DNA of 49,438 bases from an uncultured Pseudomonadota bacterium (lineage in GTDB: Bacteria > Pseudomonadota > Gammaproteobacteria > Steroidobacterales > Steroidobacteraceae): NCBI GenBank assembly GCA_903839465.1, contig CAIMCI010000273.1, positions 1-49,438 on the forward strand, in the 5' to 3' direction. The notes under the pieces are model-generated. The model did no database searches, had not been told where the DNA came from, and saw nothing but the letters and a program-made list of their open reading frames with translations. This document shows positions 30,391 to 35,968 of the stretch, piece after piece (the stretch's first letter is position 1; each line of letters opens with the position of its first letter). The translations under genes were made by a program, and so were the position numbers.

Positions 30391-31431
30391 TCAGACGCGG
30401 CTGAGCCAGCCGTGCCGGTCGGCGCTCTCACCGCGCTGGATGGCGACGAGGGCGGATCGCAGCCGGCGCGTCTCGGGGCCCACGTCACCGCCGCCGACCG
30501 GATACTCCTGCCCGTCGTGGATCAGGGTACCGACGCCGGTCAGCACCGCCGCGGTGCCGGACAGCGCGGCCTCGCCGGTGCGCGCCCAGTCGAGCATCTC
30601 CCGCACCGTGAACACCCGTTCTTCGACGGTGTAGCCGAGATCGGCGGCCAGCGTCAGCAGCGAATCGCGCGTGACGCCGTGCAGGAACGACGGGTCGAGG
30701 CTGCGGGTGAGGATGCGGCCCTCGCGCAGCAGCAGGAAATTGGCCGCGCCCGTCTCCTGGACCGAGCCGCCGGGGCAGAACAGCACCTGATCGGCGCCGT
30801 GGCGGGTCCGGGCGTCGAGTGTCGGCTTCATCGCCGCGGCATAGTTGCCGCCGGTCTTGACCATGCCGAGATGGGAGGCCGTGCGGCTGTTCTGGTCGTC
30901 GACGAAGATGCGCAGCGGCTTCATGCCGCCCGCGAAGTAGTCCCAGACCGGACTCGCCAGCACGAGCAGGGTGGCCTCGCCGGAGGGCGTCGCGGCGGCG
31001 CCGATGTTGGCCAAAGTCCCCATCAGGAGCGGTCGCAGGTACAGCGCGCCCGGGGCCTCCGGTACTTCGCCTGCAACCGCCCGGCACACCTCGCGCACCA
31101 GCCGGTCTAGAGTGCCTGCGTCCGGTTCCGGCAGGACGAGATGGCGCGCGCTCTGGCGCATCCGCGCGATGTGCTTGTCGAGGCGAAAGACGTTGATCGA
31201 GCCGTCGGTCCAGCGGTAGGCCTTCAGGCCCTCGAAGCAGGTGCTCGAATAGTGCAGGACGTGCGCCGCCGGGCTGAGCGTGATCGGCGCGGTCGCTTCG
31301 ACCGCAGCCGGCCCCCACTGGCCATCGGCAAAACGCACCACGCCCATGCGGCTGGCGAGGACGGTACCGAAGGCGGGGCGCGATTCGGCGGCGGGCGGCG
31401 GGGCAGGCGGGGTGGCGGGTTGCGCGGTCAT
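30391..31431 (-). CDS. ilvE: Branched-chain amino acid aminotransferase
   Basis: This 346-residue fold-type-IV PLP transaminase contains STCFEGLKAYR, YLRPLLMGT, the catalytic Lys192 in MVKTGGNYAAAM, and QETGAANFLLL with the PLP-ring Glu. It is the longer, eukaryote-like/BCAT type rather than the 309-residue E. coli type. It converts leucine, isoleucine and valine to their 2-keto acids, which are the substrates of the BkdAB complex encoded just upstream. An N-terminal Ala/Pro-rich tail of about 18 residues is extra; ATG 31431 is used although the frame opens at 31494. The gap to bkdB is 81 bases, so co-transcription is probable. Confidence 0.93.
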   Translation of the reverse strand: MTAQPATPPAPPPAAESRPAFGTVLASRMGVVRFADGQWGPAAVEATAPITLSPAAHVLHYSSTCFEGLKAYRWTDGSINVFRLDKHIARMRQSARHLVLPEPDAGTLDRLVREVCRAVAGEVPEAPGALYLRPLLMGTLANIGAAATPSGEATLLVLASPVWDYFAGGMKPLRIFVDDQNSRTASHLGMVKTGGNYAAAMKPTLDARTRHGADQVLFCPGGSVQETGAANFLLLREGRILTRSLDPSFLHGVTRDSLLTLAADLGYTVEERVFTVREMLDWARTGEAALSGTAAVLTGVGTLIHDGQEYPVGGGDVGPETRRLRSALVAIQRGESADRHGWLSRV

Positions 31432-31512
31432 GGCGTGATCTTCCGGGAACTGTCGGAGGGATCGGCGCCGTGCAGCCGGTCGCATACCCGGCACCTGAGA
31501 GCCTCTACCTTA

Positions 31513-32748
31513 CTACGGCATGAAGATTCGTGCCGGGTGTTCGAGCCGTTCCTTCAGTGCCTGGATCATGGCCGCGGCGTCATAGCCGTCGACGAAGCGG
31601 TGATCGAAGGACGAGGACAGGTTCATGATCCGGCGGATCGCGATGGCACCCTGGTGGACCACCGGCCGCTCGACGGCCTTGTTGACACCGACGATGGCGA
31701 CCTCCGGCATGTTGATCACCGGCGTCGAGGCGATGCCGCCGAGCCGGCCGAGGCTCGTGACCGTGATCGTCGAGCCGGACAGCTCGTGGCGCTGCGCCGT
31801 GTTGCGGCGCGCGGCATCGGCCACGCGGCGGATCTCGGTCGCGACGCCTTCGAGTGACAGCCGTTCGGCGTTGCGCACCACCGGAACCTTCAGCCCGTCC
31901 GGCGTCTGCGTCGCGACGCCGACGTGCACGGCGCGGTGGCGGACGATCACGCCGCGCTGGGCGTCGTAGAGGGCGTTGCACTGCGGGAACTCGCGCAGCA
32001 CCTGCACGAGGCCGAGGACCAGGAACGGCAGGTAGCTGAACGAGGGCACGCCCTTGGGCTGTCGCTCGTTCAGGTGGGCGCGCAGCGCCTCGAGCTCGGT
32101 GACGTCGATTTCCTCGACATACGAGAAGTGCGGAATGCTGCGCTTGGCTTCGGTCATCCGCTCGGCGATGACCCGCCGCACGCCGATGATCTTGATCTCG
32201 GTGGTGTCGGCGGCATCGACCGCCGTGCCCGCCGTCGCCGGTCGCGCGGCGGGGCGCGCCGCCCGGGCCGCCTCGACGTCCTCGCGCGTGATCCGTCCAC
32301 CGGGACCGGTACCGGGCAGGGACGTAAGCTCAAGGCCGGCTTCGCGCGCCCGCCGGCGCGTGGCGGGCGAGGCCTGGATCCGCCCGGCGCTGGCGGTCGG
32401 CGCCGGATCGGCAGCGACGGCCGGTGCCGGGCTGACGGGCGCGGCGGCCGCCACCGCCGGTGGCGGGTTTGACGCCGCCGGCGATTCGCCGCCGGGGCTC
32501 GCCGCCCCGTCGAGTTCGAACACGGCCAGTTCGGAGCCTACCGCGAGCGAATCGCCGGGCTCGCCGCTGACCGACACCAGGCGACCCGTCGCCGGCGCGT
32601 GCACCTCGACGACCGCCTTGTCGGTTGCCAGCTCGACAAACGGCGAGTCCTCCTTGACGAAGTCGCCGGCTTTCACGTGCCAGGCGACCACCTCGGCGGC
32701 CACCGTGCCTTCACCGAGGTCCGGAACCCTGAAGACGTAGCGGCTCAC
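31513..32748 (-). CDS. bkdB: Branched-chain 2-oxo acid dehydrogenase, E2 (dihydrolipoamide acyltransferase)
   Basis: This 411-residue E2 has one lipoyl domain (residues 1-78, Lys44 in ATDKAVVE), an Ala/Pro linker, a peripheral-subunit-binding domain (about residues 133-170; ATRRRAREAGL and GPGGRITREDVE), and a catalytic domain ending in FDHRFVDGYDAA with the HxxxDG motif. It transfers the acyl group from lipoamide to CoA, giving isovaleryl-, isobutyryl- or 2-methylbutyryl-CoA. GTG 32748 overlaps the E1-beta stop by four bases. A single lipoyl domain is usual for the branched-chain E2. No E3 (lpd) gene follows; ilvE does instead. Confidence 0.93.
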   Translation of the reverse strand: MSRYVFRVPDLGEGTVAAEVVAWHVKAGDFVKEDSPFVELATDKAVVEVHAPATGRLVSVSGEPGDSLAVGSELAVFELDGAASPGGESPAASNPPPAVAAAAPVSPAPAVAADPAPTASAGRIQASPATRRRAREAGLELTSLPGTGPGGRITREDVEAARAARPAARPATAGTAVDAADTTEIKIIGVRRVIAERMTEAKRSIPHFSYVEEIDVTELEALRAHLNERQPKGVPSFSYLPFLVLGLVQVLREFPQCNALYDAQRGVIVRHRAVHVGVATQTPDGLKVPVVRNAERLSLEGVATEIRRVADAARRNTAQRHELSGSTITVTSLGRLGGIASTPVINMPEVAIVGVNKAVERPVVHQGAIAIRRIMNLSSSFDHRFVDGYDAAAMIQALKERLEHPARIFMP

Positions 32749-33761
32749 GAGGCCTCCATGACCGATTTCAGCGCCGCGATGATCCGCGCGGGACCGGGGA
32801 AGTACTCCCACTCAAACGCATGCGGGTACGGCGTGTCCCAGCCGGCGACGCGCAGGATCGGTGCCTCGAGATGCCAGAAGCAGTCCTGCTGGATCTGCGC
32901 CACGAGCTCGCCGCCGAAGCCGCCGAAGCCGGTGGCCTCGTGCACGACGATGCAGCGGCCGGTCTTGCGCACCGAGCTGGCGATGGTGTGGATGTCGAGT
33001 GGCACGATCGAGCGTACATCGACGATTTCAGCCTCTATCCCCGCGGTGCGCGCCGCGGCCTGGGCCACGTGGACCATGGTGCCGTAGGTCACGATGGTGA
33101 CCTGGCTGCCTTCCTGCGCGACCTCGGCGTAGCCGATCGGCACTTTGTAATAGCCGTCCGGAACCTCGCCCTTGGGATGGTTGTTCCAGGGCTGGGCGGG
33201 CTGGTCCGGCTCGCCGTAGAAGGGCCCGTTGTAGAGGCGCTTCGGCTCGAGGAAGACGACCGGGTCGTCATCCTCGATCGCCGAGATCAGCAGACCCTTG
33301 GCGTCGTAGGGATTCGACGGCATCACCACCTTGAGGCCGCAGACGTGCGCGAACACGGCCTCCGGGCTCTGCGAATGGGTCTGGCCGCCGCGGATGCCAC
33401 CGCCACACGGCGTGCGGATGGTGACCGGTGCGTAGAACTCGCCGGCGCTGCGATAGCGCAGCCGGGCGAGCTCGCTGACGATCTGGTCATAGGCCGGGTA
33501 GATATAGTCCGCGAACTGGATCTCGGCGACCGGGCGCAGGCCGTGCACGCCCATGCCGATCGCGGTCGCCACGATGCCGCCCTCGGCGATCGGCGAGTCG
33601 AGCACGCGGTGTTCGCCGTACTTGCGCTGCAGGCCCTCGGTCACGCGAAAGACACCGCCGAAGTAGCCGACGTCCTCGCCCATCAGCACGACCGCCGGAT
33701 CGCGCGCCATCATCGTGTCGAGCGCCGAGTTCAGCGCCTGGAGCATGTTCATGATCGCCAT
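32745..33761 (-). CDS. bkdA2: Branched-chain 2-oxo acid dehydrogenase, E1 beta subunit
   Basis: This 338-residue transketolase-like C-terminal subunit shows MGEDVGYFGGVFRVTEGL, PIAEGGIVATAIGMG and EIQFADYIYPAYDQI, all characteristic of BCKDH/PDH E1-beta. It forms an alpha2-beta2 thiamine-diphosphate enzyme with the subunit encoded three bases upstream. The Glu in MGED activates the cofactor. Its TGA overlaps the E2 GTG start, which argues for tight translational coupling and stoichiometry. Confidence 0.95.
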   Translation of the reverse strand: MAIMNMLQALNSALDTMMARDPAVVLMGEDVGYFGGVFRVTEGLQRKYGEHRVLDSPIAEGGIVATAIGMGVHGLRPVAEIQFADYIYPAYDQIVSELARLRYRSAGEFYAPVTIRTPCGGGIRGGQTHSQSPEAVFAHVCGLKVVMPSNPYDAKGLLISAIEDDDPVVFLEPKRLYNGPFYGEPDQPAQPWNNHPKGEVPDGYYKVPIGYAEVAQEGSQVTIVTYGTMVHVAQAAARTAGIEAEIVDVRSIVPLDIHTIASSVRKTGRCIVVHEATGFGGFGGELVAQIQQDCFWHLEAPILRVAGWDTPYPHAFEWEYFPGPARIIAALKSVMEAS

Positions 33762-33764
33762 GGT

Positions 33765-35000
33765 TCAGCCCCGGAGTGCGCGCAGCTGCGCCTGCTGGAT
33801 CTTCAGGTGCTCGGGCATGTCCTTGAACACGTCCTCGAACATCGTGCCCGACTCCAGGCGCGGCCCGTCGGTCATGGTCCCGTAGGTGATCGCCTCCTTC
33901 CACGAGTCGGTCACGTGCGCCTCGAGTTCCTCGGCGAGCTGCGCGTGCCGCTCCTCGGTCCATTCGCCGAGGCGGATCAGGTGCTGCTTCAGGCGCTCGA
34001 TGGGATCGCCCAGCGGCCAGCGCTCGTAGTCGTCCTTTGGCCGGTAGCGGGACGGATCGTCGCTGGTCGAATGGGCTCCGCCGCGGTAGGTCACGAGCTC
34101 GATGAGCGTCGGACCGAAGCCGTTGCGGGCGCGTTCCGCGGCCCAGGTCGTCACGGCGTAGGTGGCCAGGAAATCGTTGCCGTCGACACGGATGCCGGGC
34201 ACGCCGTAGCCGTTGCCGCGCGCGGCGAACGAGCGCTGCTCGCCGCCGGCGAAACCCTGGAAGGTCGAGATGGCCCACTGGTTGTTGGTCACGTTGAGGA
34301 TCACCGGCGCCTGGTAGACGGCGGCGAACAGCAGCGCGTAGTGGAAGTCGGCCTCGGCGGTGCTGCCCTCGCCGAGCCAGCTCGCCGCCAGGCGGTCCTC
34401 GCCCTTGATCGCAGCCGCCATGGCCCAGCCGACGGCCTGCGGAAACTGGGTGGCGAGATTGCCGGACTGGGAGAAGAGGTTGCCCTCCTTCCAGTGGTAC
34501 AGGACCGGCAGCTGCCGACCCTTGCACATGTCGCGGGTATTGGACAGCACCTGGCACATCAGCACCACCAGCGGCCGGCCGCGGGTGATCTGCAGGCCCT
34601 GGTTGCGGTAGGCGGGAAACAGCATGTCGCTCGGCCGCAGCGCCATGCACTGCGCCACCGAGACCGCTTCCTCGCCATAGGCGCGCATGTAGAACGAGAT
34701 CTTGCCCTGGCGCTGCATCCGCTGCATGCGGTTGTCGTACAGGCGCGTCAGCAGCATGTGGCGCAGGCCGATCTGCAGCTCGCCGGCGTCGAGGTGCGGA
34801 TGCCAGGGGCCTACCGCGCGGTGATCCTCGTCGAGCACGCGGACCATCGAGTTGGCGAGGTCGGCGATATCGGCTGCCGGCGCGTTGATGTCGGGTCGGG
34901 CCACGGCCCCGGCAGGGGAAATCTGCACGTAGCTGAAGTCCGGGGTTTCACCCGGACGGGCATGGGCCTTCGGCACGTGCAGGCGGGACTTCGGCGTCAT
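33765..35000 (-). CDS. bkdA1: Branched-chain 2-oxo acid dehydrogenase, E1 alpha subunit
   Basis: This 411-residue subunit carries the thiamine-diphosphate motif beginning GEGSTAEADFH and ending NNQWAIS, plus LVTYRGGAHSTSDDPSRYRP, the loop that is phosphorylated in animal BCKDH. The first 60 residues form the extra N-terminal arm of the Pseudomonas BkdA1 type. It decarboxylates the 2-keto acids and reductively acylates the E2 lipoyl group. ATG 35000 overlaps the stop of the small ACT-like gene (ATGA), so its translation depends on that leader gene. Confidence 0.95.
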   Translation of the reverse strand: MTPKSRLHVPKAHARPGETPDFSYVQISPAGAVARPDINAPAADIADLANSMVRVLDEDHRAVGPWHPHLDAGELQIGLRHMLLTRLYDNRMQRMQRQGKISFYMRAYGEEAVSVAQCMALRPSDMLFPAYRNQGLQITRGRPLVVLMCQVLSNTRDMCKGRQLPVLYHWKEGNLFSQSGNLATQFPQAVGWAMAAAIKGEDRLAASWLGEGSTAEADFHYALLFAAVYQAPVILNVTNNQWAISTFQGFAGGEQRSFAARGNGYGVPGIRVDGNDFLATYAVTTWAAERARNGFGPTLIELVTYRGGAHSTSDDPSRYRPKDDYERWPLGDPIERLKQHLIRLGEWTEERHAQLAEELEAHVTDSWKEAITYGTMTDGPRLESGTMFEDVFKDMPEHLKIQQAQLRALRG

Positions 35001-35335
35001 GGCAGCTCCTCTCCGGGGACATTGTCGCGCAGCGCGCGGGCGGCGCCCACCTCGGCGACCGTTACGCTGGCGATGCCCGGCTGCAGCCGGAGTGCCGCCG
35101 CGAGGCCCGCGATCTCGGTGCTGCTGCCGACGATCTCGGCGGCGATGACGCGGCCGTGTTCCGGGCCGCCGGCGACGTCGGAGGCGAGGAGCCGCAGGCT
35201 GCGCGCCGCGAGAGCGGCGCGCAGCAGTCCCTCGGCATCGCCGGTCGTGGAGCGGACCAGCAGGAGGCTGGCGACGGTTGACGGGGGTGCCGGGGGGACG
35301 GTCGGCATCGGATCCAGGGAGAGCACGGTGGCCAT
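34997..35335 (-). CDS. Small ACT-like protein heading the bkd operon
   Basis: This 112-residue protein reads as a single beta-alpha-beta-beta-alpha-beta ACT fold: strand VASLLLVRST, helix GLLRAALAARSL, strand RLLASDVAGG, strand GRVIAAEIVG, helix TEIAGLAAALRLQPGI, strand ASVTVAEV. ACT modules, such as IlvN in acetolactate synthase, bind amino acids and regulate enzymes. It is the first gene of the operon, on the divergent promoter with the Lrp regulator, and its TGA overlaps the ATG of bkdA1. A role as branched-chain amino-acid-responsive regulatory subunit or antiactivator of BCKDH is an inference. The fold assignment comes from pattern reading, so a search should confirm it. ATG 35335 is the likely start. 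Confidence 0.65.
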   Translation of the reverse strand: MATVLSLDPMPTVPPAPPSTVASLLLVRSTTGDAEGLLRAALAARSLRLLASDVAGGPEHGRVIAAEIVGSSTEIAGLAAALRLQPGIASVTVAEVGAARALRDNVPGEELP

Positions 35336-35440
35336 CGGGCGGAAGTCTCCGATCGTCGCAAACGGGGGACCGGCAGGCCGGCCCCCGCGGGTCGTTGAAT
35401 GCCCGCAAGGGTAGCCCAGTCCGCCCGCAAAGGTGACCCA

Positions 35441-35506
35441 AAGTATTTGCATATACGAAAATTATTAGATAAGTTTTATACTGAATGCGCTTGAGAAGAT
35501 ATTTCT
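35441..35506. promoter_or_regulatory. AT-rich divergent promoter/operator region of bkd and bkdR
   Basis: This stretch is sharply AT-rich against the surrounding GC-rich DNA. It contains ACGAAAATTATTAGA, which matches the Lrp consensus YAGHAWATTWTDCTR at 11 of 15 positions, and TATACT (35477-35482) as a possible -10 for bkdR. It is the expected place for BkdR binding to control the bkd operon and its own gene. Confidence 0.5.
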
Positions 35507-35968
35507 ATGCCGATTGATCGCACGGACAGGCAAATTCTTGCTGCATTGCAAAAAGATGGCTCGCTGTCGACCGCCGATATCGCGCAGAAAGTGGGTCTGT
35601 CCCAGTCGCCGTGCTGGCGACGGATCAACCAGATGGAGAGCGACGGCGTCATCGAGCGCCGCGTGGCGCTCCTGTCACGGGCCCGTCTCGGGCTCGACGT
35701 ACTGGTGCTGGTGCAGGTGAAGCTCGCCAGTCACGGCTGGCAGTCGCTGCCCAAGTTCAAGCAGGAAGTGGTCAGCTTCCCGGAAGTCATGCAGTGCTTC
35801 CTGATGATGGGCGACGTCGACTTCATGCTGCTCGTCGCGACCCGAACCATCAACGACTACAACGATTTCGTGCAGAAGCGGCTGTCGCAGATCCCGGGCG
35901 TCGAGTCGATCAATTCGCGGATCGTGCTCGAGGAAACCAAGAACACGACCGAGCTGCCGCTGGACTAG
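35507..35968 (+). CDS. bkdR: Lrp/AsnC-family regulator, BkdR type
   Basis: This 153-residue protein has an AsnC helix-turn-helix (RTDRQILAALQKDGSLSTADIAQKVGLSQSPCWRRINQMESDGVI, residues about 4-50) and a RAM ligand domain (about 65-145; SFPEVMQCFLMMGDVDFMLLVATRTINDYNDF). Divergent placement from bkdA1 matches Pseudomonas BkdR, which activates branched-chain keto acid dehydrogenase in response to branched-chain amino acids. The ATG at 35507 has weak Shine-Dalgarno sequence nearby (GAGAAGA about twelve bases upstream). Its stop overlaps that of the convergent GGDEF gene on the opposite strand. Confidence 0.9.
   Translation: MPIDRTDRQILAALQKDGSLSTADIAQKVGLSQSPCWRRINQMESDGVIERRVALLSRARLGLDVLVLVQVKLASHGWQSLPKFKQEVVSFPEVMQCFLMMGDVDFMLLVATRTINDYNDFVQKRLSQIPGVESINSRIVLEETKNTTELPLD

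Follow-up and report, generated by a model that had tools for sequence, protein, structure and literature searches.

The lrp-bkd locus and its first cistron

Genes for the E1 alpha, E1 beta and E2 components follow one another in that order on the minus strand of the window (the whole 49,438-nucleotide stretch of DNA that was analysed) and constitute a branched-chain 2-oxoacid dehydrogenase operon, the substrate specificity being predicted. Ahead of bkdA1 lies a small open reading frame that begins with the ATG at 35335-35333 and ends with the TGA at 34999-34997, its stop codon overlapping the start codon of bkdA1 (35000-34998) as ATGA. We refer to this gene as ACT-like, a label for the predicted fold only, because its product is matched by none of the ACT models of Pfam or NCBIfam. 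The locus was compared with 74 E1-alpha loci, 73 of them at 55-91% identity and one (L082) at 37%. One of these, L011 (record CAITAM010000327.1, from genome G002 of the same genus), encodes a homologue of 116 amino acids at the same place and with the same ATGA overlap. The features are:

30391..31494, minus strand: branched-chain aminotransferase, ilvE type II, start provisional (TIGR01123 and NF009897 above cut-offs; PF01063)
31513..32811, minus strand: bkdB, E2 acyltransferase, start codon provisional (PF00198, PF00364, PF02817)
32745..33761, minus strand: bkdA2, E1 beta subunit, 338 aa (PF02779, PF02780)
33765..35000, minus strand: bkdA1, E1 alpha subunit, 411 aa (PF00676, PF12573; 91% identity with L011)
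34997..35335, minus strand: ACT-like gene, 112 aa, at the head of the operon (open frame, overlap, codon usage, homologue and predicted fold)
35397..35450, minus strand: stretch of the intergenic region between the ACT-like gene and lrp, well aligned with L011, limits set by eye (alignment)
35507..35968, plus strand: divergent Lrp/AsnC-type regulator, 153 aa (PF01037, PF13412, PF13404; 93% identity with L011)

The first-pass annotation had described the 112-residue frame with its overlapping stop and a divergent Lrp-type regulator, and both are borne out. It had also given a typical bkd gene order with lpdV after E2, which does not hold here, as the operon has no lpdV and the gene for the ilvE-type branched-chain aminotransferase comes after E2 instead. 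An ilvE-type homologue likewise lies downstream in at least nine of the 74 loci, about 3.5 kb past the bkdA1 start (L012, L013, L015, L018, L027, L035, L036, L040 and L041), the flanks of many loci being too short to show one. A longer, 151-residue version of the ACT-like protein starting at the ATG at 35452 was rejected, since in L011 no possible start codon (ATG, GTG or TTG) occurs in this frame ahead of position 1573. Opposite bkdA2, bkdA1 and the ACT-like gene, the plus strand holds an open frame of 864 codons (32820-35414), with an 866-residue counterpart in L011; such long antisense frames most likely just reflect GC-rich codon usage.

Upstream of the ACT-like gene, the block at 35397-35450 is conserved with L011 far more strongly than the gene itself, in a comparison where the identity of the open reading frame comes from a protein-made alignment and is slightly favourable; conservation does not extend to the part of the leader nearest the gene. 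The block is probably promoter or Lrp operator DNA; it contains no match to the sigma-70 consensus, and no Rfam family and no promoter or terminator consensus was found.

A coding, narrowly distributed and fast-diverging gene ahead of bkdA1

The ACT-like frame is a real gene. Its codon-usage score, from a model built on nine of the window's genes, is +0.41 bits per codon (z 7.8 against shuffles), with the other five frames at or below 0.014, and the L011 homologue scores +0.26 (z 6.5); the 171 nt that separate the ACT-like gene from lrp score negatively in all six frames. The length of the frame by itself is weak evidence of coding, since 26% of composition-matched shuffles stay open over the same distance. 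The similarity of the two proteins exceeds a neutral null, the observed score being reached by three of 1000 neutral copies at the same nucleotide divergence, and hydropathy at the changed sites is no better than its null (core r 0.25; null 0.13, sd 0.13). It is thus very improbable that the frame opened by chance in GC-rich DNA: the ease with which shuffles stay open and the low conservation of the protein would fit such an origin, but codon usage is gene-like in two species, L011 keeps the frame, the length and the overlap, and a fold is confidently predicted from either sequence.

Conservation of the gene is very narrow and restricted to the genus, with two examples. A six-frame profile search and a scan of the region before bkdA1 found it in L011 and in none of the other 73 loci, in keeping with the earlier view that such a subunit is not usual in bkd operons; the expectation that the gene would stand before bkdA1 in relatives is accordingly borne out by L011 and by none of the rest. 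The scan covered all 74 loci, with at least 400 nt of upstream sequence in 73 of them, and its codon score is not sharp, giving only 0.11 for L011 itself and 0.07 (L013) and 0.02 (L035) for frames antisense to lrp. Frames with an ATGA-like overlap in L025, L026, L031, L037, L049 and L055 were discarded for negative codon scores or for not being the best frame. Three genomes of the genus were compared, and the third (G001) has neither a match nor a close BkdA1 (best 28% identity).

Wider searches, in samples of family, order and class genomes that overlap, gave the same picture. With a profile built from the two sequences, E-values below 0.001 among 217 family genomes were obtained only in the window's own genome and that of L011; five more family matches (E 0.0012-0.0099) are partial, lie within long frames or contain stops. 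The same two genomes were the only ones matched among 396 of the order, while three of 369 class genomes matched, namely the genome of the window and a pair from a single distant genus, where the match is to an MgtC C-terminal domain. Viral contigs held no ACT-like match, nor did plasmids when the L011 homologue was the query. A single-sequence search of 150 family genomes had returned G037 (7.9e-4, partial) and G131, G039 and G045 (each above 0.005), all rejected because the two-row profile gave 0.018 or worse. Weak matches at four places in the window's own genome (E 0.011-1.2) were also set aside, the best being rescored at 3.6 bits.

The spacing of the flanking genes suggests how this distribution arose. 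Nineteen of the 74 loci, L011 among them, have a divergent lrp beside bkdA1. The start-to-start gap is 506 nt in the window and 512 nt in L011; of the 18 other loci of this arrangement, 17 have gaps of 110-293 nt, the lrp starts of relatives being extrapolated from the match. On these gaps, the simplest reading is that about 340 nt were gained in this genus; loss in all other lineages is less likely. The slot before bkdA1 holds different genes in different lineages. At L055 the lrp-bkdA1 gap is 1341 nt and contains a gene of the Glu/Leu/Phe/Val dehydrogenase family, and a gene of this family also precedes bkdA1 in L065, L068 and L069; the gene at this position in L063 and L072 looks similar to that dehydrogenase by sequence, and in L036 it encodes a class-V aminotransferase.

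The ACT-like gene changes fast amid conserved neighbours. Between the window and L011 its product is 33% identical, against 91% for BkdA1, 91% for BkdA2 and 93% for Lrp, and of two further orthologues a neighbouring GGDEF-domain protein reaches 77% (233/303) and IlvH 87% (142/163). By the NG86 method its dN is 0.718 and its dS 1.04, compared with dN 0.043-0.055 and dS 0.60-0.72 for bkdA1, bkdA2 and lrp, so that at amino-acid sites it has changed about 14 times faster than bkdA1 (dN 0.050). Such a rate argues against a subunit that is obligate and tightly packed, and less so against a loose or fast-adapting regulator. It could also mean that function is weak, and a foreign copy may conceivably have replaced the gene in one of the species.

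Predicted fold and family membership

From the two-row alignment, AlphaFold places strands at residues 20-29, 48-57, 61-71 and 88-97 and helices at 34-44 and 72-83, and ten-residue block means for the window protein are 83-93 over residues 21-90. Modelled by itself, the L011 homologue shows the same order of elements (best model 75.8; others 67.2, 54.4, 48.6 and 47.1). Some 19-22 residues precede the fold at low confidence in both proteins. The beta-alpha-beta-beta-alpha-beta arrangement of the first-pass annotation thus agrees with the prediction, and the attribution to the ACT family finds no counterpart among Pfam and NCBIfam profiles.

The best solved match in Foldseek for both models is the NikR C-terminal domain (E 1.6e-5; homologue 1.6e-4), closely followed by the MgtC C-terminal domain (7qa5, 2lqj) and by PGDH and Rel-type ACT domains. 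VIA-align, in which rows within 1 Z of each other count as tied, gives Z of about 12-13 for the AHAS small subunit (6wo1_B, 12.8 and 12.2 in the two models), homoserine dehydrogenase, NikR and PGDH (2p9e_B, Z 12.6, rmsd 2.0, 75 aligned), with Rel-type 3ibw_B at 11.5 (rmsd 1.8, 75 aligned). Both proteins are therefore predicted to be ACT-like in fold. Ribosomal protein S6, which is not an ACT protein, scores 11-12, within about 1 Z of the ACT matches, and the fold by itself consequently fixes neither family nor role.

Sequence profiles lend the ACT assignment no support. Neither protein matched an ACT family in Pfam at E up to 10, a range in which HMMER filters drop most weak matches, or in NCBIfam, and the window protein matched no Pfam family at all. 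NapD (0.062) and NikR_C (0.19) for the homologue in Pfam, and ATP synthase C (0.061) and a nickel regulator (0.21) in NCBIfam, were taken as noise; NapD and NikR share one general fold, which is also of the ACT-like type. A sequence search of the PDB gave no significant match, the unrelated chains at E of 1.1 or more being treated likewise. Against profiles of NikR, the IlvH N-terminal domain and the Lrp C-terminal domain, the window protein scores like shuffled sequences. The IlvH profile gives 1.7 and -0.2 bits for the two proteins, scores that 43 and 272 of 1000 shuffles equal, and the hhalign probability is 0.2. The homologue does better with the NikR profile, where four of 1000 shuffles score as well, and with the Lrp profile (23 of 1000).

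Among known systems, the protein resembles the AHAS small subunits IlvN, IlvH and IlvM in predicted fold (6wo1_B, 2f1f_B and 2pc6_A) and as a small protein encoded in a branched-chain amino acid operon, but matches no AHAS profile and adjoins a catabolic dehydrogenase. PGDH and Rel ACT domains share the predicted fold, whereas identity to them is 8-12%, the ACT-like protein stands alone and their turn glycine is not in both of its members. The NikR C-terminal domain is the closest structural match, yet neither protein has a Pfam match to the NikR N-terminal DNA-binding domain or a NikR-type metal site (no Cys in either; one His in the window protein, two in the homologue), and the genome encodes a separate full NikR (L142).

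The MgtC C-terminal ACT-like domain is both a structural match and the sole distant sequence match in the class sample. The two matches (G793 and G698, of one genus; E 3.2e-5 and 7.6e-5) are the only distant ones below E 0.001. For this domain hhalign gives 91%, and in the shuffle comparison none of 1000 shuffles of the homologue and four of the window protein do as well; a profile of the first match with one other gives 60% (0 and 8 of 1000). Without the first match the profile falls to 1.1% (211 and 475 of 1000), four other MgtC C-terminal domains score nothing above shuffles, and the ACT-like protein, unlike MgtC, has no membrane part. An origin from MgtC was not adopted, and we treat the likeness as a match selected from many genomes and not as a sign of ancestry. 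The C-terminal domains of the MgtC proteins of that distant genus (L107, 1510-2199, minus strand; L108) do resemble the homologue beyond shuffles.

Possible roles at the head of the operon

The reading that we favour, though its probability falls a little short of even, is that the gene encodes a recently gained accessory or regulatory protein of ACT fold, probably dimeric and co-translated, that would tune branched-chain amino acid catabolism. According to this model, a small ACT-like protein was gained between lrp and bkdA1 in this genus and would be made in step with E1 alpha, the overlapping stop and start codons suggesting translational coupling. The protein would be a small ACT-type accessory factor, probably a dimer, and could act on the complex or on expression of the operon, with an effector or partner other than the branched-chain amino acid site that is classical for AHAS small subunits. 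The coding signal in two species, the shared position and ATGA overlap of the L011 homologue, the gain in the genus and the position as first cistron of a branched-chain catabolic operon argue for this accessory role; the missing ACT sequence match, the restriction to two examples, the fast divergence and the near-tie with S6 argue against it.

Should the protein prove to act on the complex or the operon, a single genus would have equipped a conserved catabolic operon with an ACT-like regulator; should it do little, the locus would illustrate how a folded orphan protein can be carried along by an operon. In both cases it is a compact test case, and the general picture of branched-chain amino acid catabolism stays as it was. 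A literature search of open-licence PMC papers returned no description of an ACT subunit of a bkd operon; small ACT-like proteins encoded in amino-acid operons are a known kind.

Of the alternatives, it is unlikely, if still deserving of weight, that the cistron serves mainly the translation of bkdA1, by coupling or as a leader, with a product of little function. Retention of the ATGA overlap in both species beside a fast-changing protein is what such a device would leave, but the protein similarity is above the neutral null, both sequences are predicted to fold, and 17 of the 18 relatives with divergent lrp have no room for such a cistron.

The proposal of the first-pass annotation, that the protein, as a regulatory subunit, takes leucine, isoleucine or valine as ligand and acts directly on E1, in the way of IlvN and IlvH on acetolactate synthase, is rather unlikely. 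It draws on the predicted fold, for which AHAS small subunits rank near the top of the structural comparisons, and on the overlap with bkdA1. ACT domains bind their amino acid at the subunit interface. According to PMC3173338, the turn between beta1 and alpha1 has a nearly invariant glycine that coincides with the serine site of PGDH. The window protein has a glycine here (G32, in TTGD) and the corresponding loop of the homologue, SRSER, does not. At the AHAS valine site, whose effector residues we take to be N11, G14 and N29, the corresponding stretches, placed by alignment ranges only (2pc6_A and 2f1f_B), lack Asn in both proteins; all three residues are present in the IlvH of this genome, an ordinary one encoded at another place (L092). 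Because the glycine is missing from the homologue and asparagine from these stretches, classical branched-chain sensing is unsupported. Together with the lack of an ACT or AHAS profile match, the 33% identity beside a 91% identical BkdA1 and the 73 loci that do without the gene, this leaves direct control by leucine, isoleucine or valine through the ACT-like protein unsupported by the sequences, though not refuted, and the original interpretation as a whole partly supported.

A bolder variant, to which we attach a decidedly low probability, is that a stand-alone ACT-like subunit was recently recruited for direct allosteric control of the branched-chain 2-oxoacid dehydrogenase complex in this genus only, with a fast-changing effector site.

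Slighter still is the chance that the protein works together with the divergent Lrp-type regulator, as a module that binds an effector and would pair with the Lrp C-terminal domain. Neither protein matches PF01037, the Lrp ligand domain, and against an Lrp C-terminal domain profile the window protein obtains no score and the homologue one that 23 of 1000 shuffles equal (hhalign probability 2.1). Lrp does not occur among the structural matches, to which we give no weight as an exclusion. Such a pairing would suit the position of the gene beside lrp, and the same genome does encode a stand-alone protein of 109 residues that consists of an Lrp/AsnC ligand domain (PF01037) without the DNA-binding part (L105, 1438-1767, contig 15).
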